The notes below the pieces were generated by a model. That model saw only the letters and a list, made by a program, of their open reading frames with translations. It made no database searches and was not told where the DNA came from. The position numbers and the translations under genes are program-made. From the NCBI RefSeq assembly GCF_000328685.1, contig NC_019974.1:673001-737000 (forward strand): a stretch of 64,000 bases of DNA, given 5' to 3'. The stretch's first letter is position 1; every line of letters starts with the position of its first letter. Below are positions 20,002 to 40,674 of this stretch, one piece after another. This DNA is from Natronococcus occultus SP4 (lineage in GTDB: Archaea > Halobacteriota > Halobacteria > Halobacteriales > Natrialbaceae).

Positions 20002-20925
20002 ATGACAGACACCATCGACCTTTCGGGCGTCTTCCCGGCCATGTGTACGCCCTTCGACGAGGACGAACAGATCGACTTCGAAACCCTCCGCACGGACGCC
20101 CAACGGCTCGAGGAGGCGGGCGTCGACGGGCTCGTTCCCGTCGGCTCGACGGGCGAATCGGCGACGCTGACCCACGACGAACACGTCGAGGTCGTCGAGG
20201 CGGTGATCGACGCCGTCGACGACGTTCCCGTCATCGCGGGCTCGGGCTCGAACAACACCCGCGAGGCCCTGGAGCTCTCCGAGCGCTCGGCCGACGCCGG
20301 CGCCGACGGCCTGCTGTTGATCTCGCCGTACTACAACAAGCCCGAGCAGCGCGGCTTCGTCGAACACTACGAGAGGATCGCCGACGCCGTCGACCTCCCC
20401 CAGATCGTCTACAACGTCCCCTCGCGGACGGGCCAGAACATCGAGCCAGACACGGCCGTCGAACTGGCGAGCCACGAGAACATCGCGGGCTACAAGGCCG
20501 CCAGCGGCGACCTGGGCCAGATCGGCGAGATCGCCGAACGGACGACCGACGAGGAGTTCGCTGTCCTTTCGGGTGACGACGCGCTGACGCTGCCGACGAT
20601 CTCGGTCGGCGGCACCGGCACGATCAGCGTCTCGGCGAACATCGAGCCCGAACGAACGTGTGCGATGGTCGGGGCCGCTCTCGAGGGCGACTACGACCGG
20701 GCCCGCCAGCTCCACCACGAGCTCGGCCCGCTGTTCCGGACGCTGTTCATCGAGACGAACCCGATCCCGGTCAAGGAAGCCATGGAGATCCGCGGCTACG
20801 GCCCCGCCCGTATGCGCTCGCCGATGACCCGCCTCTCGGCGGAGAACCGTGACGTTCTCGAGGACGTCCTCGCCGACCTCGAGGACGAACCGACGGCGGT
20901 CGCAGACGCAGAGGCCAGTCCATGA
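20002..20925 (+). CDS. dapA: 4-hydroxy-tetrahydrodipicolinate synthase
   Basis: First enzyme of the diaminopimelate/lysine branch: condenses pyruvate with aspartate semialdehyde in the cytoplasm. The 307-residue TIM barrel shows the pyruvate-binding GSTGESATL, the conserved Tyr in YYNKPEQRG and YNVPSRTG, and the Schiff-base Lys in AGYKAASGD. First gene of dapABD with a 4-bp overlap into dapB. Relatives such as KDG aldolase share the fold, but the operon settles the call. Confidence 0.95.
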   Translation: MTDTIDLSGVFPAMCTPFDEDEQIDFETLRTDAQRLEEAGVDGLVPVGSTGESATLTHDEHVEVVEAVIDAVDDVPVIAGSGSNNTREALELSERSADAGADGLLLISPYYNKPEQRGFVEHYERIADAVDLPQIVYNVPSRTGQNIEPDTAVELASHENIAGYKAASGDLGQIGEIAERTTDEEFAVLSGDDALTLPTISVGGTGTISVSANIEPERTCAMVGAALEGDYDRARQLHHELGPLFRTLFIETNPIPVKEAMEIRGYGPARMRSPMTRLSAENRDVLEDVLADLEDEPTAVADAEASP

Positions 20926-21689
20926 CGGTCGGGATCGGCGTCACCGGAGCGACGGGACGGATGGGACGGGAGGTCGTCGCGGCTGTCGCCGGTCGCGAGG
21001 ACTGCGAGGTCGCGTTCGCGGTCAACCGCGACCCCGACGACGAGCGCGTCGACGGCGTCGAACTCGAACCCGCCGACCGGTTCGACGCGCTGCTCTCCGA
21101 GCGCGAGCCCGACGCCGTGATCGACTTCACCGGGCCCGAGTCGGCTGCGGACTACGCCCGGGCCTGCGCCGAGACCGGCGTCGCCTTCGTCACGGGCACG
21201 ACCGGGTTCGACGACGGCGGGCTCGCGGCGCTCGAGGACGCCGGCGACGAGGTTCCGATCCTCCACGCGCCGAACTTCGCCCGCGGGGTCCAGGCGCTGG
21301 TCAACGTCGTCGGCCAGGCGGTCCGGAACCTCCCGGGGTACGACGTCGAACTCGTCGAGACCCACCACAACGGGAAACGCGACGCACCCAGCGGCACCGC
21401 GAACAGACTGCTCGACGAGATCGAGGCAAACGGCGACTTCGCCGGGCGTGCGCACGGCCGCGAGGGCGAGGCCCCCCGCGAGGACGGCGAGATCGGCGTC
21501 CACGCGCTTCGTGCTGGCAGTATTACGGGCGAACACGAGGTCGTCCTCGCGGGCAACGACGAGGAGGTCCGGCTCACCCACCGCGCCGAGGACCGAGGCG
21601 TGTTCGCGGCCGGCGCGGTCGACGCCGCGGTCTGGATCGCAGGACGGAAGGCGGGGAACTACGACTTTGCGGACGTGATCGACGAATGA
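20922..21689 (+). CDS. dapB: 4-hydroxy-tetrahydrodipicolinate reductase
   Basis: NAD(P)H-dependent reductase of 255 residues, second step of the lysine branch. The nucleotide-binding motif is GVTGATGRMGREVV at the N-terminus; the catalytic region has ETHHNGKRDAPSGTA with the His and Lys of the active site. It overlaps dapA and dapD by four bases each, giving tight translational coupling. Confidence 0.96.
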   Translation: MTVGIGVTGATGRMGREVVAAVAGREDCEVAFAVNRDPDDERVDGVELEPADRFDALLSEREPDAVIDFTGPESAADYARACAETGVAFVTGTTGFDDGGLAALEDAGDEVPILHAPNFARGVQALVNVVGQAVRNLPGYDVELVETHHNGKRDAPSGTANRLLDEIEANGDFAGRAHGREGEAPREDGEIGVHALRAGSITGEHEVVLAGNDEEVRLTHRAEDRGVFAAGAVDAAVWIAGRKAGNYDFADVIDE

Positions 21690-22522
21690 GCACGCTCGAA
21701 AGCGAGATCGGCGAGCTGTGGGATCGCAAGCAAAACGGCGAGGTCGACGCGGCGTCGGCCGGCGAGGACGAACACGCGACCCTGGAGGCCTTTCTCGAGG
21801 CCCTCGAGGACGGCGAGGTCCGCGCCGCCGAGAAGTCGGGCGGCGAGTGGGAGGCAAACGAGTGGGTCAAGCAGGGGATCCTGCTGAACTTCGGCCTGCG
21901 CGAGAACGAGGCCTACGAGTACGGCGGCGTCGATCACTACGACGTCCTCCCGCTGCGCGAGACCGACGACCTCGGCGAGCGCGGGACCCGGAACACGCCC
22001 GACGGGACGACGATCCGACGGGGCGCCTACCTCGGGTCGGACTGTATCATGATGAGCCCGAGCTTCGTCAACGTCGGCGCCTACGTCGGCGACGGCACCC
22101 TCGTCGACTCCTGTGACACGGTCGGCTCCTGCGCTCAGATCGGCGCGGACGTCAAGCTCGGCGCGAACACGCTGATCGGGGGCGTCCTCGAGCCCGTCGA
22201 GTCGGCGCCCGTCGTTGTCGAAGACAACGTTTCGCTCGGTGCCGGCTGCCGGGTGACCTCCGGGTTCGTCGTCGGCGAGAACAGCGTCGTCGGCGAGAAC
22301 ACCCTTCTGACGCCGCGGATCCCCGTCTACGACCTCGTCGAGGAGGAGGTCGTCTACGGCGAACTGCCCGCGAACCGGCGCGCCTTCACGCGGTTCGTTG
22401 AGTCCTCGGTCAGCGACCACGACCTCTTCGAGGGCGGCGCCTACAAGCCCGCCGTCGTCGCCACCGACCTCGAGACCGAGACCCTCGAGGCCACCGAGCG
22501 CGAGGACGCACTGCGGGAGTAA
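21686..22522 (+). CDS. dapD: Tetrahydrodipicolinate N-succinyltransferase
   Basis: Left-handed beta-helix acyltransferase of 278 residues that succinylates tetrahydrodipicolinate. Hexapeptide repeats run from about residue 115 to 220 (GAYLGSDCIMM, GAYVGDGTLVDS, GADVKLGANTLIGG). It shows that this organism uses the succinylase route, which then needs DapC, DapE and DapF. The upstream 279 codons in the same frame are antisense-like and not part of the gene. The next dap genes are 38 kb away. Confidence 0.95.
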   Translation: MSTLESEIGELWDRKQNGEVDAASAGEDEHATLEAFLEALEDGEVRAAEKSGGEWEANEWVKQGILLNFGLRENEAYEYGGVDHYDVLPLRETDDLGERGTRNTPDGTTIRRGAYLGSDCIMMSPSFVNVGAYVGDGTLVDSCDTVGSCAQIGADVKLGANTLIGGVLEPVESAPVVVEDNVSLGAGCRVTSGFVVGENSVVGENTLLTPRIPVYDLVEEEVVYGELPANRRAFTRFVESSVSDHDLFEGGAYKPAVVATDLETETLEATEREDALRE

Positions 22523-23015: not shown

Positions 23016-23765
23016 ATGCGCATCGACGACGAGGACGGAGTGCGAACGATCACCTTCGATCGGCCCGAACAGCTGAACTCGTTTACGGCCGACGAAGCCA
23101 GCGAGCTGGCGGCGGCCATCGAGGACGTCGACGAGGACGAGTACGACGCGATAGTGCTCACCGGCGAGGGCGAGGCGTTCAGCGCCGGAGGCGACCTCGA
23201 GGCGATGGACGAACGCGAGGAGACGCCCAAGGAGTCCTACGAGCGGACGACCGAGACGCTGGGACGGGTCGTCGAGACCGCGCTCACCTCGCCCGTTCCG
23301 GTCGTCGCGAAGGTAAACGGTGACGCCGTCGGCGCCGGACTGGCGGTCACTGCGGTTAGCGACTTCGCCTACGCCGCGGAATCGGCCGCGTTTAGCTGTG
23401 CGTTCGTCCGCGTCGGGCTCGTTCCTGACACCGGCGGGACCTTCCTGCTTCCGCAACTGATCGGGCTCCGGGACGCCAAGCGACTGGCACTGACCGCCGA
23501 GTTCGTCTCCGCCGAGGAGGCCGCGGAGCTGGGGCTCGTCAACGAGGCCGTTCCGGACGAGGAGCTCGACGACGCGGTCGCCGACCTCCTCGAGACGCTC
23601 CGGGAGCGCCCGACCGCGACGCTCGGGCTCACCAAGCGGGCGATCCACGAGAACATGGGCCGCTACTGGCAGGAGGCGCTGGATCACGAGCTACTCACCC
23701 AGTCGCTGGCGTACGGAACGCCGGAACACGAGGACGGCGTGCGGGCGTTTCTGGAACGACGCTGA
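23016..23765 (+). CDS. PaaG-like enoyl-CoA hydratase/isomerase
   Basis: Crotonase of 249 residues. The oxyanion hole segments are AFSAGGDLEAM and GDAVGAGLAV. At the usual catalytic Glu position the sequence reads FVRVGLVPDTGGTFLLPQL, where Asp replaces the second acid as in PaaG, the ring-1,2-epoxyphenylacetyl-CoA isomerase. I therefore assign an isomerase role in aromatic or unsaturated acyl-CoA breakdown rather than simple hydration. The start is supported by GTTATTGT 28 nt upstream. It is the first of five crotonases in this window. Confidence 0.78.
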   Translation: MRIDDEDGVRTITFDRPEQLNSFTADEASELAAAIEDVDEDEYDAIVLTGEGEAFSAGGDLEAMDEREETPKESYERTTETLGRVVETALTSPVPVVAKVNGDAVGAGLAVTAVSDFAYAAESAAFSCAFVRVGLVPDTGGTFLLPQLIGLRDAKRLALTAEFVSAEEAAELGLVNEAVPDEELDDAVADLLETLRERPTATLGLTKRAIHENMGRYWQEALDHELLTQSLAYGTPEHEDGVRAFLERR

Positions 23766-24254: not shown

Positions 24255-24719
24255 TTAGCTCGGGCGACGCTCGAGCAGTTCGTGGTTCTCGAGTGTCAAC
24301 ACCTCGACGCCGTCCTGGTTCGTGACAGTAATCGACTCACGAACGACACCCGTCTCGGGGTTGCTTTCGGAGACCCGCGTCTCAGTGATCGTGGTCGCTA
24401 CCGAGAGGGTATCCCCCGGTCGAACGGGTTCGTGCCACCGGACGTCGTCGATCCCGAGTCCCGCGACGACCGCCCGATCCTGTCGCACTTCCTCGACGAG
24501 TAGCCGCACCGAAAGCGAGAGCGTGTGATAGCCGCTCGCGATGAGCCCTTCGTACCGGCTTTCAGCGGCCGCGGACGGATCCGTGTGGATCGCCAGCGGA
24601 TCGAACTGTTCCCCGAAGTCGGTGATCTCCTCTTCCGTAACCGTAACTGATCCGCACTCGATCGTCTCGTCGACCGGAACGTCCTCGAGATAGACGACAT
24701 TCGCGTCGCTGTCACACAT
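24255..24719 (-). CDS. MaoC-family hot-dog dehydratase
   Basis: (R)-specific enoyl-CoA hydratase-like protein of about 154 residues. The hydratase motif runs from EQFDPLAIHTDP (catalytic Asp and His) to YEGLIASGYHTLSL. In phenylacetate catabolism, the MaoC half of PaaZ hydrolyses oxepin-CoA; here no fused PaaZ exists, so this free MaoC with the aldehyde dehydrogenase at 55808 might supply the two halves. That link is inference. A GTG 15 nt upstream is an alternative start. Confidence 0.85.
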   Translation of the reverse strand: MCDSDANVVYLEDVPVDETIECGSVTVTEEEITDFGEQFDPLAIHTDPSAAAESRYEGLIASGYHTLSLSVRLLVEEVRQDRAVVAGLGIDDVRWHEPVRPGDTLSVATTITETRVSESNPETGVVRESITVTNQDGVEVLTLENHELLERRPS

Positions 24720-24971
24720 ATCGCCTTCCACCACGCCGAAACTGATGTGTGTTACTATTAGGCCAGGAGCGTCGAGATCGGCCGATTCGAACAGTGCTTC
24801 GGATCGGTAGCCGCCTTATCCCGCAGAAACCACGTATGTGGCGAAGCGACACGATCTATTACCGCTACTCACTCGCACCACCCGTTGCGTTGCTCCGTGA
24901 GGACCGAGACTCCACTCGAGAAAGTTGAATAGAGTTTTTGTGATAGAGCCCCCTACTTACTGATAGCAAGT

Positions 24972-25469
24972 ATGACAGGGAAATACATGACGTCCGAGAG
25001 CAACTTGCCGGAGAAGCCGGAGGGGGAGGAGATCCAGCTCCAGGTCAGCGACGAGCGGACCAAGGAGATCTTCAATATCCGGGCTCGCGTCGGTCGGGAT
25101 CCGGACGAACTGAGCGATCCCGACCGGTTGACCGTCGTCAAGGGGCCACACGAGAACACCGAGGAGGAGTGGTACATCGACGTCCTCGAGACCGATCCGG
25201 ACGACGGAATCGATAGGGAGCTACTCGAGGCGACGATGGCCTCGATGGAGGACAAGTCAACGGTCATCAACACCCGTTCGAAAGAGGTCAAGACGCTGCT
25301 TCGATATCTTACCGAAACGGACGAGTTCGAGTCGGTATCCGAGGCGAGCCGGACGATCATGCTGGAGTATCTCTCGGATAACTACGCCGATCTCGTCGAG
25401 GAGTACATCGACCTCAAGGTTCAATCGGAGCGGAGCGAGTTGGCCGACGAGCTGTACGATTACAAATGA
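24972..25469 (+). CDS. Unrecognised acidic protein heading the UbiD cassette
   Basis: I do not recognise this 165-residue protein. It is highly acidic. A C-terminal stretch, ESVSEASRTIMLEYLSDNY, resembles the second and third helices of ribbon-helix-helix proteins, so a regulatory role is possible; a small subunit of the UbiD-like complex is the other idea. Its stop overlaps the UbiD start by four bases (ATGA), which argues for joint translation with the two UbiD proteins. An in-frame ATG at 24987 is an alternative start. Confidence 0.6.
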   Translation: MTGKYMTSESNLPEKPEGEEIQLQVSDERTKEIFNIRARVGRDPDELSDPDRLTVVKGPHENTEEEWYIDVLETDPDDGIDRELLEATMASMEDKSTVINTRSKEVKTLLRYLTETDEFESVSEASRTIMLEYLSDNYADLVEEYIDLKVQSERSELADELYDYK

Positions 25470-26953
25470 CTGCGGGTAGCCTCCGGCAGTACCTCCAGAC
25501 GCTGGAGACGAGGAAGGATCTCCACCGGATCTCCGAACCCGTCTCCTGGAACCTCGAGGCCAGCGCCGTTACGATGCTCGCGAACACGGAGGACAGCCGG
25601 ATCCCGCTGTTCGAGGACGTCGACGGCGCCCGACTCGTCGGGGATCCGTACCGGGGTAGCCAGCGACGGCCGTGGGACCGAATCGCGCTCGGGCTGGGGC
25701 TCCCGTCGGATCTCTCCTACGAGGAGTACTACGAGATGGTGATCGAACGGTTGAACGACCCGAAGCCGCCGACGACTGTCGGGACCGAGGACGCACCGTG
25801 CAAGGACGTCGTCGAGACCGGAGACGACGTGGATCTACTGGACTTTCCCTGGCCGTACATCCACGCGGGCGACGGTGGACGCTACTCGAATCTCCATACG
25901 CTGATCGCACCCGATCTCGACTCCGAGTGGGTCGACTGGTCGTACCACCGGTCGATGATTCACGACGGTGAGACCGCGAGCGTACTGTTGCTCGCCGGCG
26001 AGCAGACGCCGAACCTCTACTACTACAAGTACGAACAGCACGACGAGCCGATGCCAGTCGCGATCGCCATCGGCGTCGAGCCCGCGGTACAGTACACCTC
26101 CGTCATGTGGATCCCGACCGGACGAAACGAGGCCGAGTTCGCGGGCGGGCTGAAAGGGGAGCCGATCGAACTCGTCGAGTGTGAAACGAACGATCTTCGG
26201 GTGCCGGCGACGGCCGAACTCGTCATCGAGGGAGAGATCGTTCCGAACGAGCGCCGCGACGAGGGACCGTTCGGCGACTACTTCGGCTACGTCCACGGGC
26301 CACGGCGATCGATGCCGCTCCTGCGAGTGACGGGAATCACCCACCAGCAGGATCCCATTATTCCATTTTGTGTCGAAGGAACCGGCGTCGGTTACACCGA
26401 GAACACCACCAGCTCCATGGAAGTCGGCTGTGTCGGTCCGGACGCGACGCTTGGTCTTCGCACCGCCGGGTTCGACGTCGAGTGCTGTGCGCCCTGGAAG
26501 TCGACGCCACGAACGGTGTACACGATTGCGACGCCGTCGAACGACGACGGCTACCTCCATGAACTCGCGAATTTCATCTTTACGACCTGGGGAATGCTTC
26601 ACGTCGACTTTTTCATCTTCGTCGACGCCGACGTCGATCCGCTCGATCAGCGCCAGGTACTCGAGGCGCTTGCGTTACACGCGGATCCGGACGAGGACTT
26701 CCACCAGTTCGGGGTCGAAACGATGCCGAAGGTGCCGCTGAACATCTACCAGACGCCGACAGAGAAGGGAGACGTCCAGACGGGAACCTCGAAAGCCAAG
26801 ACCGCGAAAGCCTACATCGACGCGACCAGCGACGGCGACGGGACGCGAGACGACGACGTCGAGATAGAGTACCGCGCCCAGGAGATCCTCGAATCCGCGG
26901 GGGTTGACCCGGAGAAGCTCCCGTTCGTCGATCCCGGGGAGGGAGGACGATGA
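25466..26953 (+). CDS. UbiD-family prenyl-FMN-dependent decarboxylase
   Basis: Reversible (de)carboxylase of 495 residues for aromatic or unsaturated acids, needing prenylated FMN from UbiX (no ubiX in this window). The signature EGPFGDY is at residues 266-272, following the binding strand TAELVIEGEIVP, so the catalytic acids look intact. An ATLGLRTAGFDVECC stretch and the C-terminal domain ending NIYQTPTEKGD are as in UbiD/AroY-type proteins. It overlaps its neighbours by four bases on both sides. The substrate is unknown; an aryl acid fits the surrounding genes. Confidence 0.9.
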   Translation: MTAGSLRQYLQTLETRKDLHRISEPVSWNLEASAVTMLANTEDSRIPLFEDVDGARLVGDPYRGSQRRPWDRIALGLGLPSDLSYEEYYEMVIERLNDPKPPTTVGTEDAPCKDVVETGDDVDLLDFPWPYIHAGDGGRYSNLHTLIAPDLDSEWVDWSYHRSMIHDGETASVLLLAGEQTPNLYYYKYEQHDEPMPVAIAIGVEPAVQYTSVMWIPTGRNEAEFAGGLKGEPIELVECETNDLRVPATAELVIEGEIVPNERRDEGPFGDYFGYVHGPRRSMPLLRVTGITHQQDPIIPFCVEGTGVGYTENTTSSMEVGCVGPDATLGLRTAGFDVECCAPWKSTPRTVYTIATPSNDDGYLHELANFIFTTWGMLHVDFFIFVDADVDPLDQRQVLEALALHADPDEDFHQFGVETMPKVPLNIYQTPTEKGDVQTGTSKAKTAKAYIDATSDGDGTRDDDVEIEYRAQEILESAGVDPEKLPFVDPGEGGR

Positions 26954-28356
26954 CGACGCTCCGGCAGCAACTCGAGAGGCTCCGGGAGACCGACGACCTG
27001 GTCCCGGTTGCCGAACGGGTCCACTGGGACGCGACGGCTGCGTCGGTCGCCGCCGAAGCGACGCGACACAACTGTCCGGCGACGCTGTTCGAGGACACAC
27101 CCGGCGAGGTACGACTCGCGAGCGGCGTCTTCGGCGGTCCCGATCAGTTCACGAGCCTCGATCGACACCCCTGGCAGCGAACCGCGCAGGCGCTTGGGTT
27201 CGATCCGGACTGTTCGTACGAGACGGTGGTCGAACGGCTGGCCAGCCGAACCACCGCCCCGACCGAGGGCTCGCCCGACGGAGAGCCGGATGCGACGCCT
27301 CTCGAGAACGTCGACCTCTACGGGCTGGGGCTCCCGACGAGCGATGACGGCAGCCCGCTGGTTTCCCTCGGGGTACTGGCAGCGACGCGGGACGGCGTCA
27401 CGACCTGGGTGCCGATTCGGGGAGTCGCGCTGCGCAACGCGACGCTTCGCCTGGTGGTTCCCCAGGTAGCGGCCGACTGGCTCGGACCGCAGGCCGACGC
27501 GAGCGTCGTTCTCGGTGTCGGGGCCGTCCCGCTCGTGGCGGCGCTTCAGGGGTGGACACAGGATCGAATCACTCCCGACGTTCCCGGCCTGACTGCGGGC
27601 ATCGGCGACGTCTCGATGGCGACCGTCGACTCGCGAACCGTCCCGTCGAGTGCGGACGTTCGAATCGACGGTGGGATGACAGTCGATCGGACGGCTCCCG
27701 AGCCGAGCGGACCGAAAGCGGCGTGGGAACGGTCCTGTGAGACGGCGGTGATCGACATGAGCGTCGATCGGATCGCGACCCGCGAGGAGCCGGTCGTCGC
27801 GTTCACGCCCCTCGGAGAACCGCTGACTGACGACCTCCATCTCGTGAGTCTCGTCGAGGCTGCACAGCTGTTCCGGCGAGTCAACAGCTACTGGGGCGTC
27901 TCACCCGTCGAGTGGATCCGACTTCCCGTCGAGTCGCGCCTCGGGCTCTGTATCGTCTCGAGCGAGATCCTCTATGCGGGGTTCGAGTGGCAGCTCGCGA
28001 ACACGCTGTTTTCGTTCTCGAAGCTGTTCGACAAGGTGCTCGTTCTGGACGAGAACGCCGATCCGACGAACCTCGCGAGATCGATCGACGACATGTGGGT
28101 GAAGGCCCACCCCGGAAACGACTGGATCTTCAGCGAGCCGAACGCACCGAGCGCGACCGCGCCACGGTACCGACAGGACGGCGAGACCGGTTCCAGGCTC
28201 TATATTAACGCGACGTGGGACCCCCACTGGGACGAGGAGTATATCGCCCCCCAGGTCACCTTCGAGACGTCGTTCTCGGAGAACGTCAAGGAGGCTCTCG
28301 AGGAGCGATGGGAAGAGTTAGGGCTCGACGAACTCGTCGAATCAAACGACCGATGA
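26950..28356 (+). CDS. Degenerate UbiD-family paralog, probably non-catalytic subunit
   Basis: Protein of 468 residues whose beginning (TLRQQLERLRETDDLVPVAE) and end parallel the preceding UbiD, but which lacks the EGPFG(D/E) signature: the matching place reads MTVDRTAPEPSGPKAA. Several central motifs are also changed. It is co-translated with the active UbiD (4-bp overlap). I infer a structural or regulatory partner in a heteromeric enzyme, as in phenylphosphate carboxylase where several UbiD-like subunits assemble. It may instead be a diverged enzyme of its own. Confidence 0.7.
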   Translation: MTTLRQQLERLRETDDLVPVAERVHWDATAASVAAEATRHNCPATLFEDTPGEVRLASGVFGGPDQFTSLDRHPWQRTAQALGFDPDCSYETVVERLASRTTAPTEGSPDGEPDATPLENVDLYGLGLPTSDDGSPLVSLGVLAATRDGVTTWVPIRGVALRNATLRLVVPQVAADWLGPQADASVVLGVGAVPLVAALQGWTQDRITPDVPGLTAGIGDVSMATVDSRTVPSSADVRIDGGMTVDRTAPEPSGPKAAWERSCETAVIDMSVDRIATREEPVVAFTPLGEPLTDDLHLVSLVEAAQLFRRVNSYWGVSPVEWIRLPVESRLGLCIVSSEILYAGFEWQLANTLFSFSKLFDKVLVLDENADPTNLARSIDDMWVKAHPGNDWIFSEPNAPSATAPRYRQDGETGSRLYINATWDPHWDEEYIAPQVTFETSFSENVKEALEERWEELGLDELVESNDR

Positions 28357-29309
28357 CAGCAATCGTTCGCGTTCCGGTCGGCGGCGGAACCCCTGAAGGA
28401 ACGAACAGCGCGTACCTCCTGCCAGATCGGGGCGTCCTCGTCGACCCCGGTCCACCCTCCGAGCGAGCGTGGGCCGATCTCCGGGATGGAATCGGCGCCC
28501 ACACGGCGATCGAGGATCTCGAACACGTTTTCGTCACGCACTGGCACATCGACCACGCCGGGCTGGCCCATCGGCTCGCGGACCGGGCCGGGGCGGCGAT
28601 CCACGTCCACCGCGAGGACGCACCGTTGATCGGCGACTACGCTGACGCGCGAGCCAGCCGGCTCCGTCGGGACGAACGAACCCTGGAGCGGTGGGGCGTT
28701 CCGAAGTCGGTTCGCGAGTCGGTGATCGATCGCGACGAACCGTCCCCGCTTCCCGACGCGGCGCCGGTGAACCGACACGACGACGGTGATGTCGTCGCTG
28801 GCGTCGAGTTCGTCCACACGCCGGGCCACACGAAGGGACACGCTTCAGTTCGGATCGACGGGACGATCCTTCTTGGCGATCTGCTGTTGCCCACGTACAC
28901 GCCGAACGTCGGCGGGAGCGACACGCGGCTCGACGATCCCCTCGGCGCGTACCTCTCCTCGCTCGAGCGCGTCGCGACCCACGAGGAGGGGGAGCCGGGT
29001 CACGGAACGACGATGTCGATCGACGAGAGCATCGCGGACGTGCGGCGCCACCACCGTGATCGGGCGGCGTCCTCGTTCGAAGCCATCGCCGCGGCGGACG
29101 AGACGGCGGTGACACCGTGGACGGTCGCGCGCCACCTGTTCGGAGAGATGGCAGGCGTTCACGCGAAGTTCGGCGCGGGCGAGGCGGCCGCACATCTGGC
29201 CCGGCTCGCCGAGTTGCGGATCGTCGAGCGGTGGACGGACGATCGCGGCCGAACGCGATACCGACCCGCTGTCGATTCGTATCCAGCCGAGCTTTCTCTC
29301 GGACGGTAA
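28353..29309 (+). CDS. Metallo-beta-lactamase-fold hydrolase
   Basis: Hydrolase of 318 residues. The metal motif HxHxDH is H63-W-H65-I-D67-H68 (THWHIDHAG); a later His lies in TPGHTKGH and an Asp in LGDLLLP. The C-terminal third (ETAVTPWTVARHLFGEMAG) resembles the winged-helix tail of the RBBP9/LACTB2-like branch. Some relatives are thioesterases or lactonases, so it may release an acid from a CoA ester produced around the UbiD step. It overlaps the degenerate UbiD by four bases and closes the cassette. Confidence 0.85.
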   Translation: MTAIVRVPVGGGTPEGTNSAYLLPDRGVLVDPGPPSERAWADLRDGIGAHTAIEDLEHVFVTHWHIDHAGLAHRLADRAGAAIHVHREDAPLIGDYADARASRLRRDERTLERWGVPKSVRESVIDRDEPSPLPDAAPVNRHDDGDVVAGVEFVHTPGHTKGHASVRIDGTILLGDLLLPTYTPNVGGSDTRLDDPLGAYLSSLERVATHEEGEPGHGTTMSIDESIADVRRHHRDRAASSFEAIAAADETAVTPWTVARHLFGEMAGVHAKFGAGEAAAHLARLAELRIVERWTDDRGRTRYRPAVDSYPAELSLGR

Positions 29310-29446: not shown

Positions 29447-30286
29447 TTACTCGCTGCCGGGGTCTTTCTCGCCGAGCTCGACGCCCAGGAAGTCGGGCTC
29501 GCGGTCGTTGAGGAAGGCGTCGACACCCTCCTCGGCGACGTCGGAGCCGAGCAGGCGGTTCTGCAGTTCGCGCTCGTGGGCAAGCGCGTCCGAGAGCGGC
29601 ATCTCGAGGCCCTCGTTGACGGCCAGCTTGTTGTTGCCGACCGCGACGCTTGGCTTTTCGACGATCTCCGCGGCGAACTCCTGTGCTTTCTCCTCGACCT
29701 CGTCGGGCGGGTGGATCTCGTCGAAGATACCACGGCCGGTCGCCTCCTGGGGCGTGAGCGTGTCGCCCGTGATCATCATGCGAAGCGCCTCCGAACGGTC
29801 GATGTAGCGCGGGAGCAGCTGCGTTCCGGCCTCTCCTGCGATCATACCCAGGTGGATCTCGGGCATGCCGACGTTGTAGCTCTCGTCGTCGCCGATGTAC
29901 CGGAAGTCACAGGCGAGCGCAAGCTCGAGGCCGCCACCCATACAGTGGCCGTTGACGACGGCGATGAAGATGGTGTCGGTCGTCCGCATCTTCATGATGA
30001 TCTCCTTGCTCGTCTGGCTCGCATAGCCGACCTGACGGCCCGATTTCTCCTGAAGCTCCTGGATGTCGAATCCGGTCGAGAAGAATTTCTCGTTCGAGCT
30101 TCCGAAGATGACGGCGCGGACGTCCTCGTCGAAGCGGACGGCTTCGACCGCGCGCTGGAGGTCCAGCAGGACCTCGATGTCGTGTGCGTTTGCCGGCGGG
30201 CGGTCGAGACGCAGCTCACCGATGTGGTCGTTGACCTCCGTCGTGAAGTACTCTAGATCCAACTCGTCGAACGCTTTGAGTTCCAT
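29447..30286 (-). CDS. Enoyl-CoA hydratase/isomerase family protein
   Basis: Crotonase of 279 residues. The first oxyanion segment is FFSTGFDIQELQ, the second HCMGGGLELALA, and the catalytic Glu stands in VGMPEIHLGM, so hydratase activity is plausible. The usual GxGGTQ turn is replaced by AGEAGTQLL. The start is supported by a TATA-like TTCATATG 28 nt upstream. It lies downstream of the paa operon on the same strand but has its own promoter. An 11-bp repeat (GTGTCCCAGTC) flanks it on both sides. Confidence 0.85.
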   Translation of the reverse strand: MELKAFDELDLEYFTTEVNDHIGELRLDRPPANAHDIEVLLDLQRAVEAVRFDEDVRAVIFGSSNEKFFSTGFDIQELQEKSGRQVGYASQTSKEIIMKMRTTDTIFIAVVNGHCMGGGLELALACDFRYIGDDESYNVGMPEIHLGMIAGEAGTQLLPRYIDRSEALRMMITGDTLTPQEATGRGIFDEIHPPDEVEEKAQEFAAEIVEKPSVAVGNNKLAVNEGLEMPLSDALAHERELQNRLLGSDVAEEGVDAFLNDREPDFLGVELGEKDPGSE

Positions 30287-30403: not shown

Positions 30404-30583
30404 CTACCGCCCAGTATCCGGATTTTCACCGTCGTACTTGATTCGCTCGAACACGGTGTTGCAGCCGTTGCAGTAGTACTGGGTCTTCGAGATCTCGCTC
30501 CCGAACGCCGATTCCCGTTCCGTATCGGTCGACTCACAGAACGGACACCGGACCGCTGACTCCGGAGCGTGGTCGGTCATCAT
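30404..30583 (-). CDS. Stand-alone PaaD-type zinc-ribbon protein (59 residues)
   Basis: Short gene with translation MTDHAPESAVRCPFCESTD followed by the pair YYCNGC. CPFC...CNGC, with the spacing S-x-FGS-x-I-x-K-T-x-YYC, matches the C-terminal zinc ribbon of bacterial PaaD (CPFCGS...S-x-FGST...Y-x-C-x-x-C). Here that ribbon is a separate protein and the MIP18 half is encoded upstream at 31546. The start ATG overlaps the paaC stop in TGATG; a second ATG follows at 30580. It presumably helps maturation of the diiron or Fe-S centre of the phenylacetyl-CoA epoxidase. Confidence 0.8.
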   Translation of the reverse strand: MMTDHAPESAVRCPFCESTDTERESAFGSEISKTQYYCNGCNTVFERIKYDGENPDTGR

Positions 30584-31344
30584 CAGCTCAGGGCAAACTC
30601 CGCGTTGCGCTCACCGCGGAGCTGTTTGACGTCGTTCGCCGTGATCGCGTCCGTCCCGGTTCGTCGCCGGGTCTCGTTCCAGTCGTCGGCTGGTGCGTCC
30701 CAGTCGACGTCCTCGAGTGAGACGTCCGTCTCGGCGAACAGTTCGCGGTAGTGGTCGATAAACGCCGTTCTGATCTCCGAGATCGGACGATCCGTGAACC
30801 CGGCCTCGTACAGCGGATCCTCGCTCTCGTCGTAGCTCGCCGGCCCGATGAACGCAAGCGCCTGCGGGAGCGTCCGTTCCAGCGTCGCCTGCACCGTCCC
30901 GGGATCCTCCTCGGCCAGCGTCTCGAGGCGAGCGTCGTGGTACTCCAGGTGGAAGTACTCGTCCTCGCCCATCTTCGTGATCAGCCCCTCGAGGTCGTCC
31001 CGGTCGATCGCGTCGAGCAGGTACCACGCGGCTCGGTCGGCGGGGGCGATCGAGGCGACGTACTCGGTCCAGTCGCCGTCGATCCGATCGAGGCAGGCGG
31101 CGTTGGCGAACTCGTCCGGGTCGCGCTGGCCCTTGGTCCACTCGAGGTCCCGTCCCTGGGCCTCGAGCTTGCTCGCGAGCTGTCGGACGTGGCCGATCTC
31201 CTCCTGGGCCGCACTGGCGCCACCGATGTCGTCCTCGAGCGAGGGTCCCGAGAGCGCCCACTGGGCGTACCGGTGTCCCAGGACGAGCTTGGTGTCCGTG
31301 ATCGCCTGGACGTAGTCGACGGCGGGCTCGGGCCACTCACTCAT
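30583..31344 (-). CDS. paaC: Phenylacetyl-CoA epoxidase subunit PaaC
   Basis: Structural ferritin-like subunit (253 residues) that pairs with PaaA in the 1,2-phenylacetyl-CoA epoxidase. Helical bundle sequence with QEEIGHVRQL and GEDEYFHLEYHDARL at the positions of the former metal ligands, plus the typical end part near ASYDESEDPLYEAGFTD. It overlaps paaB by 8 bp and the zinc-ribbon gene by 1 bp. Confidence 0.92.
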   Translation of the reverse strand: MSEWPEPAVDYVQAITDTKLVLGHRYAQWALSGPSLEDDIGGASAAQEEIGHVRQLASKLEAQGRDLEWTKGQRDPDEFANAACLDRIDGDWTEYVASIAPADRAAWYLLDAIDRDDLEGLITKMGEDEYFHLEYHDARLETLAEEDPGTVQATLERTLPQALAFIGPASYDESEDPLYEAGFTDRPISEIRTAFIDHYRELFAETDVSLEDVDWDAPADDWNETRRRTGTDAITANDVKQLRGERNAEFALS

Positions 31345-31549
31345 TGGTGCTCACCCCGACGGTCGGCTTCGGGTCGTTGCTCACTTGCAGGTAGTCGTCC
31401 TCGCGGACGACCGCGAGCATGTCCCAGTCTTCCTCGTCGAACGTGTTGTACGCGTACATCTTTGCTAGTTTATCACTCTTTGCGGTGACGTTGCCGATGT
31501 GTTTGATCTCGTCACCTTGGTTGATTCGTGCGAACACTTCGTACTTCAT
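31337..31549 (-). CDS. paaB: Phenylacetyl-CoA epoxidase subunit PaaB
   Basis: Small subunit of 70 residues that helps assemble the PaaABC epoxidase. The sequence MKYEVFARINQGDEIKHIGNV and the close ALTYNTFDEEDW-like stretch (MYAYNTFDEEDWDMLAVVRE) match PaaB, but the protein is about 25 residues shorter than the Escherichia coli one. The start at 31549 overlaps the paaD stop, and its end overlaps paaC by 8 bp. Confidence 0.88.
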   Translation of the reverse strand: MKYEVFARINQGDEIKHIGNVTAKSDKLAKMYAYNTFDEEDWDMLAVVREDDYLQVSNDPKPTVGVSTNE

Positions 31550-31941
31550 AGGCTGATTCCTGCTTCGCGGATCTTTTTGCGAACCGATTCCGTGAGCATG
31601 TCCTTCGACCAGACGGGATCCCAGACGACGTCGATGTCGACCTCGTCGACGCCGTCGACGACGGTGAGACAGCTCCGAACGTCGTTGTGGATCATGTCGT
31701 AGGCCGGACAGCCCATACAGGGGAACGACATCTCGACGGTGACGTGGCCGTCGTTCTCCGTGACGTCGTAGATCATCGCCATCTCGACCAGACTCACCGG
31801 AATGTGGGGATCCGGAATCTCGTCGAGGACGTCCCACAGCTCCCGCTCGAACGGCGTCGTATCGGCACGCCGTCCCTCGACGAACTCACTGGTCTGGGAG
31901 ATGTCGGTCAGTTCGTCGCCGTTTCGCTGTGCGCTCGACAT
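31546..31941 (-). CDS. paaD: PaaD, MIP18/DUF59 domain part
   Basis: Protein of 131 residues with the MIP18 (DUF59) fold used in Fe-S or metal-centre assembly. LDEIPDPHIPVSLVEM is the family's first motif (normally D-P-E-I-P), and SFPCMGCPAYDMI carries the two Cys near the active loop. Bacterial PaaD has a C-terminal zinc ribbon fused to it; here it is a separate gene at 30404. It lies between paaA and paaB with minimal spacing. Confidence 0.88.
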   Translation of the reverse strand: MSSAQRNGDELTDISQTSEFVEGRRADTTPFERELWDVLDEIPDPHIPVSLVEMAMIYDVTENDGHVTVEMSFPCMGCPAYDMIHNDVRSCLTVVDGVDEVDIDVVWDPVWSKDMLTESVRKKIREAGISL

Positions 31942-31942
31942 G

Positions 31943-32863
31943 TTAGACCTCGACCTCGAGGGTGCCGGACTGGATCAGGTTGACGTACTTCTCGTTGGCC
32001 GGTCCGCGGTCGCGCCAGCGGTCGATCGTGTCGGACCACGAGATCGGTTCGTCGAACCGCCACTCCTTGTTCGCGGCGTCGAACGCGACCGGGAAGTCGT
32101 ACTCGAGGACGTACTCGTCGGCGTCCTCGTCGTAGTGGGCGGGCACGTCCAGATCGAGCTCGTTCATCAGCGGCATCGTCCGCGAGAGCCAGTCCTGACG
32201 GAGCTCGTCGTTGGACTTGCCCTTGATGCGGTACTCGAGCTGGTCGTCGTGTTTCTTCTTATCGTCGGGCATCCCGAACCACTCGACGCCGATCGGGAAC
32301 ATCCAGTCGACCGCCCCCTGGAGCTGCTGTTTGGTCTTCTCGCTGTTGTTCGCGAGCCGGCGCATCCACGTCTCGCCGTGGCGGAGGTGGAACTGCTCTT
32401 CCTTGCTGACCTTCGTCAGCGCGCGCTTCCAGGGCGCATAGGAGGTGTTCTCGTGAATGTCGCCCAGGAGCACGATCCCTGCGCGGTCGAACATCCCGTG
32501 GGCCGTCACGAGTTCGGCGAAGTTGTCGATATGCTGGTCGAACCCGTACGTGTTGCGGAACTCGTGGGGCTCGCGCTCGTAGATGAGTTCCTCGCGGTCC
32601 TCGCCGAGGTCCTCGAGCAGGCGGTAGGCGATGTGGCCGTGGCCGAGCTCGTCCTGGATCACGCTGATACACGACGCGCGGGCGTCCAGCGACGGCGCGT
32701 TGAGCGACTGGTCGTAGTACGCCGGCGCGCTCATCAGCTCGGTGTCGCCCGAGACCAGCAGGATCTGCTTGAGCGCCTTCTTGTAGCCGTCGGTCATCTC
32801 TTCGGTCGATTCGATCATCCGCCCGTTCTGGAGTTCTTGCTTGAACTGCTTTTCTGAGGGCAT
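31943..32863 (-). CDS. paaA: Phenylacetyl-CoA epoxidase catalytic subunit PaaA
   Basis: Diiron oxygenase subunit of 306 residues that epoxidises the ring of phenylacetyl-CoA with O2. Iron ligands are seen as ExxH in QDELGHGHIAYR (about residue 70) and EEQFHLRHGE (about 155). It heads the operon paaA-paaD-paaB-paaC-zinc ribbon. A TATA-like AATTATAAC (about 32901-32909) precedes it, with a GTATAC palindrome at 32916. The operon has no paaE (flavin/ferredoxin reductase), so electrons must come from elsewhere. Confidence 0.94.
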   Translation of the reverse strand: MPSEKQFKQELQNGRMIESTEEMTDGYKKALKQILLVSGDTELMSAPAYYDQSLNAPSLDARASCISVIQDELGHGHIAYRLLEDLGEDREELIYEREPHEFRNTYGFDQHIDNFAELVTAHGMFDRAGIVLLGDIHENTSYAPWKRALTKVSKEEQFHLRHGETWMRRLANNSEKTKQQLQGAVDWMFPIGVEWFGMPDDKKKHDDQLEYRIKGKSNDELRQDWLSRTMPLMNELDLDVPAHYDEDADEYVLEYDFPVAFDAANKEWRFDEPISWSDTIDRWRDRGPANEKYVNLIQSGTLEVEV

Positions 32864-35002: not shown

Positions 35003-36661
35003 TCAGCTACTCTGTTCCTGCTCGCGAAGCTCGGTTCGGCGGATCTTTCCGGTTTCCGTTCGCGGGAGCGACTCCGTGAACTCGATCTCGCGGGGGTACT
35101 TGTACGGGGCGAGCGTGTTCTTGACGTGGTTCTGGATCTCGGTCACGAGCTCGTCGTCGGGAGTCGTCCCGTTCGATAGCACGGTAAACGCCTTCACGAT
35201 CTCGCCGCGTTCCTCGTGGGGGCTTCCGACGACGGCGACCTCCGAGACGGCCTCGTGTTCCTCGATGACCGCTTCGACCTCCGGACCGGGGATGTTGTAC
35301 CCGCTCGAGATAATGAGATCGTCGCTCCGGGACTTGTACTCGAGGCGGCCGTCCTCGCGCTGGACGTAGATGTCGCCAGGGATCGACCAGCCATCCTCGG
35401 TCGTCGACTCCACCTGTTTTTCGGGGCGATCCCAGTACTCGACGCCGGTCGGGCCACGAACCGCGAGTAGGCCGGATTCGCCGCGCTCGAGTTCCTCGCC
35501 GGTATCGGGATCGATGATCTTGCACTCGTAGCCCGGTACGGGGAAGCCGGTGGCGCTCGGGTCGATATCCCCGTCGTGGCAGTGGCTGATGAAGATGTGG
35601 AGCATCTCCGTCGTCCCGATCCCGTCGAGCAGGTTGATCCCGTACTCCTCTTTGAAGTTCTCGAACGTCGTCGGCGTGAGCGGTTCGCCCGCGCTGAGAC
35701 CGACCCGGAGCGAGGAGACATCGTACTCCTCGGGACCGTCGGGGTAGTTCGAGAGGATTTGGTTGAAGCCGGTCGGAATCGAACACAGCACTGAGATCCC
35801 GTGGTTCTCGACAGCCTCGAGCAGATCGCCCGGGCTCGCGTCCTCGACGAGGCTCGTACTCGCGCCGAATCGAAGCGGGAACGTGACCAGGTCGCCGTAG
35901 CCGTACGCGAACGGGAGCGGCGGGTTTCCGCCGAAGACGTCCTCCTCGGTCGGCTCGATGCAGTACCGGGCGTACGTGTCCGCGGTCGCGAGGACGCTCC
36001 GGTGGCTGTGAACTGCGCCCTTCGGGCGACCGGTCGTCCCGCTCGTGTACAGCATCAGTGCCAGGTCCTCGCGCTCGGTTTCGTAGGCTTCGAGTTCGTC
36101 GTCGGCCGACTCGAGGAGATCGTCATAGCTGTGGTGGTCGTGGTCGACGCCGTTGCGCTCGGCGACGATGACGTCCTCGACGGTGTCGAGCTCCGGCAGC
36201 GCGTTCTCGACTTCCTCGAGAAGATCGTCGTAGACGACGACGGTCGTCGCCTCCGCGTTGTTGATGATGTAATCGAGCTCCTTGGCCCGCAGCAGCTTCA
36301 TCGACGGGAGCGCGACGCCGCCGATCTTCTGGACGGCGAGACACGTTACGATCGCTTCCGGACGGTTCGGGAACCGGACGACGACCCGGTCGCCGGCCTC
36401 AACGCCGAGGTCCCGGAGCGCGTTCCCCATCCGATCGACCTGTTCCTGGAGCTGCTCGTAAGTGAACGTTCGATCCTCGAAGTAGATCGCGACGTTGTCG
36501 CCACGTCCCTCCTGAACGTGGCGGTCGACGAGTTCCTCTGCGACGTTGATTCGCTGGGGGTAATGGGCTTCCGGGGTCGGATGGATGTAATCCGGAGCGT
36601 TCGATTCGTCCGGTAGATACTCCTCTGGGACGTTCGGCTGCATGTACGAGTAATCCATCAT
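35003..36661 (-). CDS. Aryl/acyl-CoA ligase (AMP-forming, benzoate-CoA ligase type)
   Basis: Enzyme of 552 residues that makes an acyl-AMP and then the CoA thioester. The P-loop motif LMLYTSGTTGRPKGAVHSH is at about residue 203-221; later motifs are GIGTTEM, the Asp hinge GDIYVQREDGRLEYKSRSDD, and the catalytic Lys in PRTETGKIRRTEL. General layout and size suit the benzoate/2-aminobenzoate-CoA ligase group better than PaaK (about 440 residues), so an aromatic acid other than phenylacetate is possible. A second ATG lies 3 nt downstream. Upstream on the same strand is a CoA-transferase relic. Confidence 0.85.
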   Translation of the reverse strand: MMDYSYMQPNVPEEYLPDESNAPDYIHPTPEAHYPQRINVAEELVDRHVQEGRGDNVAIYFEDRTFTYEQLQEQVDRMGNALRDLGVEAGDRVVVRFPNRPEAIVTCLAVQKIGGVALPSMKLLRAKELDYIINNAEATTVVVYDDLLEEVENALPELDTVEDVIVAERNGVDHDHHSYDDLLESADDELEAYETEREDLALMLYTSGTTGRPKGAVHSHRSVLATADTYARYCIEPTEEDVFGGNPPLPFAYGYGDLVTFPLRFGASTSLVEDASPGDLLEAVENHGISVLCSIPTGFNQILSNYPDGPEEYDVSSLRVGLSAGEPLTPTTFENFKEEYGINLLDGIGTTEMLHIFISHCHDGDIDPSATGFPVPGYECKIIDPDTGEELERGESGLLAVRGPTGVEYWDRPEKQVESTTEDGWSIPGDIYVQREDGRLEYKSRSDDLIISSGYNIPGPEVEAVIEEHEAVSEVAVVGSPHEERGEIVKAFTVLSNGTTPDDELVTEIQNHVKNTLAPYKYPREIEFTESLPRTETGKIRRTELREQEQSS

Positions 36662-37370: not shown

Positions 37371-37392
37371 GGACAGAGCGCACTGATTGGAT

Positions 37393-38637
37393 ATGTCTGG
37401 CAAAGACGTGGGTAGCTCCCACAGTCATACGACCAGCAGGAGTTCCATTTCGAGGCGTTCGCTCCTCGCGAGTGGTGCCGCTGTCGGGGCAACGACGGCA
37501 CTTGGAGGGTGTCTCAGCAGCCACGACGACGAACTAACGATCGGGTTCGCGCTCCCGTTTACCGGCACGTACGCGCTGCTCGGCGAGAGTATCGTCGCCG
37601 GGTTCGAGCTGTTCGTCGAGCAACAGGGCGGGGAGATAAACGGAGAGGACGTCGAGTTCGTCCGGCGGGATACCGAGGCCGAGACGAGCCGCGGCGTCGA
37701 CGTTACTCGGGAGCTGTTGCTCGAGGCCCGAGCCGACGCCATCGTCGGTCCCGTCTCGAGTGCCGTCGCGATGGCGATGATCCAGCCGATCCAGACCGAA
37801 TCGAGCGCGCTCTGGTTCAACGCGAACGCGGGCGACTACCGGGTGACCGCCGAGGGCTGTCCGAAGTACCACTTTCGGACGTCGTTCAACGACTGGCAGA
37901 CGAGCGCACCCCTCGCGCAGTTCGTCTACGAGGAGATCGCCGACAACGTCTGCCTGGCGTACGCCGACTACGCGTTCGGCCAGAACTCGAAGGAGTTCTT
38001 CAAGGAGGCGTTCGAGGAACTCGGCGGCGAGGTCGTCGAGGAGGTGGGTGCGCCGCTCGGCACCGACGACTTCTCGCCGTATCTCGGCGACATTCAGGGG
38101 TCCGGCGCCGACGCCGTCTACTCCTTTTTCGCCGGGGACGACGCTGTCAACTACGTCAACGCCTTCAGCGACTTCGGCCTCGACGAGGAGATGGTACAGA
38201 CCGGGAGCGGGTTCATGCTCGCAAACGACACGCTTCCAGCGCAGGGTGAGTCGGCGCTCGGAATGTACTCACTGCTTCATTACACGACCACACATGATAC
38301 CGAACGTAACCGAGAGTTCGTCGAGAACTACGTCGAACTGTACGACGAGACGCCGAACGTCTACGCCTGCCAGGGGTACGACTCCGCACAGGCGTTCGCC
38401 GGCGCCGTCGAAGAAACCGGTGGCACCGATCCCGACGAGATGGCCGAGAGTCTCGTCGAAATGGAGTTCGACAGCCCACGTGGTGAGTTCGAGTTCGATC
38501 CCGAGACCCACGAGGCGGTCCAGAACCTGTACGTCCGGGAGGTCGTCGAAGCCGACGGTGACGAGGCAGTCGAAAACGAGGTCGTCGAAACACTCGAGGA
38601 CGTCGAGGGGCCCGACTGGGGGTGTAGTCACCGGTAA
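37393..38637 (+). CDS. livK: Liv-type ABC transporter substrate-binding lipoprotein
   Basis: Exported solute-binding protein of 414 residues (LivK/AmiC fold, Peripla_BP_6 type). The Tat signal with lipobox is SRRSLLASGAAVGATTALGGC, so it is probably anchored by lipid after folding inside. The ligand-binding N-terminus reads LTIGFALPFTGTYALLGES. Such proteins take up branched-chain amino acids but also aromatic acids (benzoate, phenylacetate-type) in aromatic clusters. The surrounding genes favour an aromatic acid, which is inference. First gene of the five-gene transporter, with 86 nt before livH. Confidence 0.9.
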   Translation: MSGKDVGSSHSHTTSRSSISRRSLLASGAAVGATTALGGCLSSHDDELTIGFALPFTGTYALLGESIVAGFELFVEQQGGEINGEDVEFVRRDTEAETSRGVDVTRELLLEARADAIVGPVSSAVAMAMIQPIQTESSALWFNANAGDYRVTAEGCPKYHFRTSFNDWQTSAPLAQFVYEEIADNVCLAYADYAFGQNSKEFFKEAFEELGGEVVEEVGAPLGTDDFSPYLGDIQGSGADAVYSFFAGDDAVNYVNAFSDFGLDEEMVQTGSGFMLANDTLPAQGESALGMYSLLHYTTTHDTERNREFVENYVELYDETPNVYACQGYDSAQAFAGAVEETGGTDPDEMAESLVEMEFDSPRGEFEFDPETHEAVQNLYVREVVEADGDEAVENEVVETLEDVEGPDWGCSHR

Positions 38638-38723
38638 CATGTCGTCGCTCGACCGTTTCACTCCGACGGCGTTCCGACTCGCACCGACAGCCGAAAACCG
38701 ATCCGAAGCGGGGGGTTCGTACC

Positions 38724-40673: not shown

Positions 40674-40674
40674 T

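Follow-up and report, generated by a model that had tools for sequence, protein, structure and literature searches.

The window analyzed here is a stretch of 64,000 nucleotides from Natronococcus occultus SP4 (contig NC_019974.1, positions 673,001 to 737,000), and our subject is a compact cassette within it that holds two UbiD family genes, UbiD1 and UbiD2. Four open reading frames (ORFs) on the plus strand lie within 24972-29309, and every junction between them is a 4-bp ATGA overlap. A preliminary description of the window had reported the four genes, their overlaps, and this interval, all of which proved correct in an ORF check. The genes, together with the UbiD1 motifs discussed below, are as follows.

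24972 to 25469, plus strand: small UbiD-operon protein, 165 amino acids (aa), with an AlphaFold 2 (AF2) model; found in 61/61 loci
25466 to 26953, plus strand: UbiD1, a catalytic-type UbiD, 495 aa (PF01977, 3.8e-67)
25934 to 25951, plus strand: DWSYHR of UbiD1, corresponding to NWSIAR of Fdc in an alignment to Fdc 7ney
25994 to 26011, plus strand: AGEQTP of UbiD1, invariant in the cassette family; Glu179 and Gln180 correspond to Gln190 and His191 of Fdc
26258 to 26290, plus strand: DEGPFGDYFGY catalytic motif of UbiD1; Glu266 and Asp271 correspond to Glu277 and Glu282 of Fdc
26950 to 28356, plus strand: UbiD2, a degenerate UbiD paralog, 468 aa, matching UbiD_N and UbiD_C only
28353 to 29309, plus strand: metallo-beta-lactamase (MBL)-fold hydrolase, 318 aa, with HxHxDH intact (PF00753, 2.6e-18)

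The UbiD1 protein shows all three UbiD domains in Pfam (UbiD_N, 5.2e-14; PF01977, 3.8e-67; UbiD_C, 8e-12), and its EGPFGDY motif begins at aa 266. UbiD2 matches UbiD_N (7.7e-13) and UbiD_C (1.3e-12), with no match to PF01977 and no EGPFGDY motif, which bears out the earlier division into a UbiD with the signature and a paralog without it. The fourth protein is the MBL-fold hydrolase that it had been called, with the motif THWHIDH at aa 62 to 68. The 165-residue protein, described as unrecognized, had no match in Pfam or NCBIfam even at an E value of 1.

Conservation of the gene trio

UbiD2, being diagnostic, served as the marker for the cassette. It was present in 47 of 125 Natrialbaceae genomes, one of 48 listed genomes (G039) having been excluded because the match was a weak one to its other UbiD, and in 85 of the 391 genomes of a class sample of Halobacteria. 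When GTDB was scanned with one genome for each species, 61 named loci were recovered, all of them haloarchaeal, from Natronococcus, Natrinema, Natrialba, Halorubrum, Haloferax, Haloarcula, Haladaptatus, Halorientalis, and others. The small gene, UbiD1, and UbiD2 are contiguous on one strand in every one of the 61, and the arrangement is therefore not due to chance. A 4-bp overlap joins UbiD1 to UbiD2 in 51 loci and the small gene to UbiD1 in 25. The two UbiD genes were never found apart in the genomes examined for UbiD (53 Natrialbaceae and 44 others). A single UbiD2 match in the class sample, G182:C2:298271-299644, has an in-frame stop (TGA) and is a possible pseudogene.

The loci form two clades, clade A with 25 loci, including the Natronococcus window, and clade B with 36. 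The cassettes of Haloferax sulfurifontis and Haloferax denitrificans are of clade A. In clade A, 19 of the 25 loci have the MBL gene directly after UbiD2, another 2 have it directly upstream of the small gene, and 4 lack it; no MBL gene follows UbiD2 in any of the 36 clade B loci. The preliminary description had proposed a four-gene cassette whose members would recur together elsewhere. The recurrence holds for the small gene and the UbiD pair, and since the MBL gene is mostly confined to clade A, the cassette is cut from four genes to three: the conserved unit is the trio, and the hydrolase is an accessory.

Active sites and age of the UbiD pair

Residues are numbered here as in Fdc. The equivalents of Arg173, Glu233, and Glu277, along with an Asp at position 282, are invariant in UbiD1 of all 61 loci. 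In the window, Asn168 is replaced by Asp157 and Ala172 by His161, and Arg173 is retained as Arg162. The Asn168 equivalent is Asp in 25/25 clade A proteins and Arg, Ser, Thr, His, Gln, or (once) Asn in clade B, so that Asn168 is lost in 60/61 UbiD1 sequences; it is kept in 10 of 11 comparison UbiDs (10 haloarchaeal noncassette proteins and that of Escherichia coli). His191 is Gln in 61/61. For the metal-phosphate site formed by Asn168, His191, and Glu233, whose ligands vary in known members too, the UbiD1 tally is thus Glu in 61/61, Asn in 1/61, and His in 0/61. New residues are conserved nearby, with Glu at position 190 (61/61), Trp at position 226 (Trp215 in the window, 61/61), and His at position 172 (60/61). 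In position, His161, Glu179, Gln180, and Trp215 are next to the catalytic Arg and to the pocket for the flavin phosphate. By alignment, UbiD1 retains the Arg-Glu-Asp catalytic triad, with two of the three cofactor-phosphate/metal ligands replaced. The Asn168, His191, and Glu233 equivalents are apparently missing from L105 (G041:C91), a UbiD that adjoins a UbiX gene.

For UbiD2, the preliminary view of a degenerate partner is upheld by residue counts showing that it keeps no prenyl-flavin mononucleotide (prFMN) site. Among 39 UbiD2 sequences, none of the positions Asn168, His191, Glu233, Glu277, and Glu282 holds a conserved residue, 24 have His and 12 have Arg at position 173, and the catalytic motif is absent from all 39. 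The fold is predicted to be kept: the AF2 model, with a predicted local distance difference test score (pLDDT) of 79.5, matches every solved UbiD at Z scores of 26.4 to 34.4 over 364 to 407 residues. Conservation is highest in the C-terminal domain, reaching 0.89 at aa 341 to 360, and the rift domain is poorly conserved; more than 55 positions, mostly in the C-terminal domain, are invariant across 47 sequences. The segment from aa 384 to 441 is among the most conserved, yet its pLDDT is below 50 in the monomer model, as would be expected of a segment that is ordered by a partner. The dimer interface of PA0254 is built mainly from its C-terminal domain (PMC3650080). From these features, we infer that UbiD2 is a pseudo-enzyme subunit kept for assembly.

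Tandem UbiD genes also occur in two genomes from other families of the same phylum, G617 (L202, G617:C100) and G589 (L203, G589:C38). In the tree, the first tandem genes fall with UbiD1 of the haloarchaea (99/97) and the second ones with UbiD2 (99/98); these two clades are each other's sisters (100/99). The UbiD2 profile likewise matches the second gene at an E value of 2.3e-39 and the first at 6.2e-18. In the first copy, Asn168 and the triad are retained; in the second, the motif reads EGPFTGA or EGPYLNF and Glu282 is gone. The UbiD1-UbiD2 pair is therefore older than Halobacteria, with its second copy already degenerate. Small ORFs of 93 to 118 aa adjoin the UbiD genes in both loci, and their similarity to the N-terminal domain of the cassette small protein is weak (hhalign E value of 0.003 in a single comparison, probability of 10%). 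The L202 pair adjoins a ligase with an AMP-binding_C_2 domain, typical of phenylacetate-coenzyme A (CoA) ligases (PaaK type).

UbiX, the small protein, and neighboring genes

A recent paper describes UbiX as the one highly conserved prenyltransferase that accompanies UbiD enzymes (PMC10865409), and the prFMN that it makes is treated as the universal UbiD cofactor. Only 1 of the 91 cassette genomes in the family set and class sample encodes UbiX. The preliminary description had expected prFMN as the cofactor, an expectation at odds with the 90 genomes that encode none. In the family set, a search with PF02441 found UbiX absent from 46 of the 47 Natrialbaceae cassette genomes, the only matching frame in cassette genomes being one of about 400 aa that was taken as CoaBC. 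UbiX-sized PF02441 matches were found in six Natrialbaceae genomes, five of them without the cassette and all six with a noncassette UbiD; conversely, all six Natrialbaceae genomes with a noncassette UbiD have UbiX. The UbiX model TIGR00421 matched 32 of the 391 class-sample genomes and none of the 85 with a cassette, a co-occurrence of 0 against an expected 7 (P of 2.7e-4, with shared ancestry ignored). All 27 UbiX genomes outside Natrialbaceae carry a UbiD, and overall 33/33 UbiX-bearing haloarchaeal genomes carry another UbiD. The cassette genomes outside Natrialbaceae have exactly one PF01977 match each (44/44). Haloferax volcanii matched neither PF01977 nor the UbiX model. In the genome of the Natronococcus window, the best match to the UbiX model is CoaBC, at an E value of 0.27. 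The genomes are 94 to 100% complete, several of them in one to five contigs, and missing sequence is therefore not the cause of the absence. This absence is the most surprising result, and it is what makes the cassette interesting.

The small protein is modeled in two parts, a beta domain at aa 1 to 78 and a helical half at aa 81 to 155, in an AF2 model with a pLDDT of 81.6 and a predicted template modeling score of 0.49. Residues 81 to 154 align with SegB (7duv), a ribbon-helix-helix DNA-binding protein, at a Z score of 6.8 (root mean square deviation of 3.1, 73 residues aligned), with the next unrelated entry at 3.2. The ribbon-helix-helix families in Pfam gave one weak ParD match, a whole-model Foldseek search gave none at an E value of 0.001, and the protein's profile found nothing among PDB sequences, including PhdC and LpdD. 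A weak similarity to PpcG (E value of 0.024 in a single comparison) was not used. A search for operators found no inverted repeats upstream of the small gene, and a promoter-like conserved block lies about 20 to 45 bp upstream of it. One RefSeq record names the protein "ubiD operon protein." Its acidity is normal for a haloarchaeal protein. An invariant Gly-Pro-His-Glu at aa 58 to 61 of the N-terminal domain (44 sequences) looks like a ligand or contact site. Because the C-terminal half looks like a ribbon-helix-helix, the protein may be a regulator, an accessory subunit of the enzyme, or both.

Beyond the cassette, the window contains the following genes.

23016 to 23765, plus strand: enoyl-CoA hydratase/isomerase, a clade A neighbor (PF00378, 1.1e-54)
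24255 to 24734, minus strand: MaoC-like hydratase, a divergent neighbor (PF01575, 1.1e-20)
29447 to 30286, minus strand: enoyl-CoA hydratase/isomerase, a clade A neighbor kept in clade A loci (PF00378, 3.4e-53)
30583 to 32863, minus strand: PaaC, PaaB-like, PaaD-like, and PaaA, a Paa-type ring epoxidase (PF05138 for PaaC; ortholog names in pHTUR01)
35003 to 36661, minus strand: AMP-forming acyl-CoA ligase (PF00501, 1.3e-82), a relative of the clade A benzoate-CoA-ligase-family gene
37387 to 42220, plus strand: branched-chain-amino-acid-type ABC uptake system (Peripla_BP_6, two BPD_transp_2, two ABC_tran)

The clade A neighbors are PaaA, PaaB, PaaC, and PaaD-type genes, enoyl-CoA hydratases, and a ferredoxin; Paa-type genes adjoin the cassette in all clade A loci and a benzoate-CoA-ligase-like gene does so in most. 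The ligase at 35003 to 36661 is about 70% identical to a protein in sister loci that passes TIGR02262 (376.0 bits, with a cutoff of 375.25). In clade B, the neighbors are an acyl-CoA ligase, an acyl-CoA dehydrogenase, a biotin-dependent carboxylase (biotin carboxylase and carboxyltransferase genes), and a MaoC hydratase. These two neighborhoods point to roles for the trio in no fewer than two CoA-thioester pathways.

Other features of the island were noted in passing. The ABC uptake system is complete and is a candidate aromatic-acid importer. A NuoF-like gene at 44478 to 46022 adjoins a very long ORF (region 44478-49210), and the orthologous cluster of Haloterrigena pHTUR01 is flanked by a formate dehydrogenase alpha gene and a NuoF-like gene. 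The aerobic benzoyl-CoA (box) route releases formate. The Paa-type epoxidase, the benzoate-CoA ligase relative, and the NuoF-like gene may thus belong to a box-like pathway that uses a Paa-type epoxidase. Upstream, outside the cassette, the block at 20002 to 22522 holds lysine synthesis proteins that resemble DapA and DapB by eye.

Interpretation and comparison with known systems

The data support an intact UbiD and a catalytically degenerate paralog that are conserved together across Halobacteria in CoA-thioester neighborhoods. This pairing with a pseudo-enzyme is real, conserved, and underdescribed. We favor, with a probability of roughly 0.5, the explanation that the trio encodes an ancient heteromeric UbiD (de)carboxylase that operates in haloarchaea without UbiX-made prFMN; the complex, its catalysis, substrate, and cofactor, and the role of the small protein are what we infer. 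UbiD1 would be the catalytic subunit, acting through the Arg-Glu-Asp triad, and UbiD2 would be a pseudo-UbiD kept for its C-terminal oligomerization domain, packing on UbiD1 where another UbiD1 would otherwise sit. The N-terminal domain of the small protein would contact the enzyme, and its ribbon-helix-helix half probably ties operon expression to the state of the enzyme. The complex would (de)carboxylate an aromatic or alpha,beta-unsaturated acid, or a CoA ester of one, with the product feeding the CoA-thioester catabolism encoded next door. Judged from the neighboring genes, CoA-linked aryl-acid (de)carboxylation is plausible. The cofactor in haloarchaea would be a plain or otherwise modified flavin, or none, and not UbiX-made prFMN. 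A stricter form of the proposal is tentative: an obligate heteromer with a pseudo-enzyme subunit, free of prenylated flavin, using flavin in its plain form or with some other modification, or else a flavin-free site built from the new invariant His, Glu, Gln, and Trp, with the small protein as a loading factor or sensor-regulator.

Several observations weigh against the heteromer working without UbiX-made prFMN. One cassette genome, G055, encodes UbiX, as do the nonhaloarchaeal genomes with the same pair (G617 and G589), and the His191Gln change is already found in UbiX-bearing nonhaloarchaeal relatives. Genuine prFMN enzymes vary singly at Asn168/His191, with Ser/His in PA0254 and Asn/Gly in E. 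coli UbiD (PMC3650080), and in L105, a haloarchaeal UbiD linked to UbiX, all three ligands appear to be missing. Residue changes alone therefore do not exclude prFMN, and the distribution of UbiX is the stronger argument. The neighbors also differ between clades A and B and therefore do not single out one substrate. An ordinary prFMN-dependent UbiD heteromer, supplied by an unrecognized, nonorthologous flavin prenyltransferase or by scavenging from neighbors, would explain the invariant triad and Glu233 and agree with cofactor use in the rest of the family, as well as with UbiX in the sister archaeal pairs and in one cassette genome. We hold it to be doubtful in view of the family cassette genomes in which PF02441 yields CoaBC and no UbiX (46/47), the class-sample cassette genomes without a TIGR00421 match (85/85, against 32 other genomes with one), and the change of two phosphate/metal ligands in almost every UbiD1 protein. 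Repurposing of the pair beyond (de)carboxylation, for example to another reaction on, or the binding of, CoA esters, would fit the new invariant residues next to the catalytic Arg and flavin-phosphate pocket (His161, Glu179, Gln180, and Trp215), the lack of UbiX, and neighbors that act on CoA esters in both clades; it is unlikely, because a decarboxylation triad invariant in 61/61 proteins would be odd after a change of chemistry.

The part played by the small protein is a separate matter. It is quite possible, though not what we lean toward, that it is a transcriptional regulator only and that the enzyme consists of UbiD1 and UbiD2 alone, as the SegB match of its C-terminal half (Z score of 6.8) and the position of its gene, first in the operon and divergent from the MaoC gene, would suggest. 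On the other side, the ribbon-helix-helix fold is unconfirmed by sequence, no inverted repeat lies upstream, and the small ORFs beside the nonhaloarchaeal pairs resemble the N-terminal domain (at the hhalign E value of 0.003 and probability of 10% given above) and have no C-terminal half. That UbiD2 is a decaying, functionless duplicate is very improbable; its catalytic residues are lost and its rift domain drifts, but the gene is intact and always adjacent, its more than 55 invariant positions lie mostly in the C-terminal domain, and its degeneracy predates Halobacteria.

This lineage, which combines an intact triad with a single UbiD in each genome and lacks UbiX, permits a direct test of alternative UbiD chemistry against an unknown flavin prenyltransferase. 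The cassette further provides a clear example, within the UbiD family, of a long-standing pseudo-enzyme partner, and it would account for a step in the aromatic catabolism of haloarchaea, about which little is known so far. In the literature covered, which excluded most subscription journals, we found no reports of haloarchaeal UbiD, UbiX-less UbiD, or inactive UbiD subunits.

The prFMN decarboxylases of the UbiD family (Fdc1, TtnD, HmfF, and PA0254/HudA) share the fold of UbiD1 and UbiD2 and the Arg173-Glu277-Glu/Asp282 triad of UbiD1. The cassette differs from them in being a two-gene pair with a pseudo-enzyme, in having no genomic UbiX, and in the replaced Asn168 and His191 equivalents. VdcCD, LpdCD, and PhdAC also combine a UbiD with a small operon protein, in their case a single UbiD plus UbiX, and VdcD, LpdD, and PhdC have prFMN handling or subunit roles (PMC10865409, PMC13040415); hhalign of the cassette small protein against a single VdcD gave nothing credible (E value of 0.26). 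Phthaloyl-CoA decarboxylase (8oz5, 8pmk) has the UbiD fold, acts on an aryl-CoA, and shows a weak sequence match to UbiD1 (2e-10). Its solved complex, in contrast, has a single UbiD type with prFMN bound, and the haloarchaeal neighbors show no sign of making phthaloyl-CoA.

The preliminary description had likened the pair to phenylphosphate carboxylase. PpcABCD of Thauera and Azoarcus does have two UbiD-like subunits and small subunits in one operon and belongs to aromatic metabolism. The analogy does not survive closer comparison: both Ppc UbiD subunits keep Asn168, Arg173, Glu277, and Glu282, they lie in other clades, and UbiX is found within the Ppc cluster. Cassette UbiD1 and UbiD2 make up a 28-row clade of their own (100/99), apart from PpcA and PpcB, and the scores against the Ppc models fall far below the cutoffs (154.6 bits against 564.6 for TIGR02723; 107.8 against 468.95 for TIGR02724). 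Kinship with phenylphosphate carboxylase was thus rejected by clade, model scores, and motif. No phenylphosphate synthase or PpcD phosphatase is named beside the annotated cassettes, the genomes themselves not having been searched for either. The phenylphosphoamidate carboxylase of Desulfatiglans anilini also has two UbiD-like subunits, and FMN is reported to suffice for it (PMC7500099). It differs in being bacterial, in acting after a phosphorylation step, and in coming from a genome with UbiX. It is the nearest precedent for the proposed working of the UbiD pair without UbiX-made prFMN.

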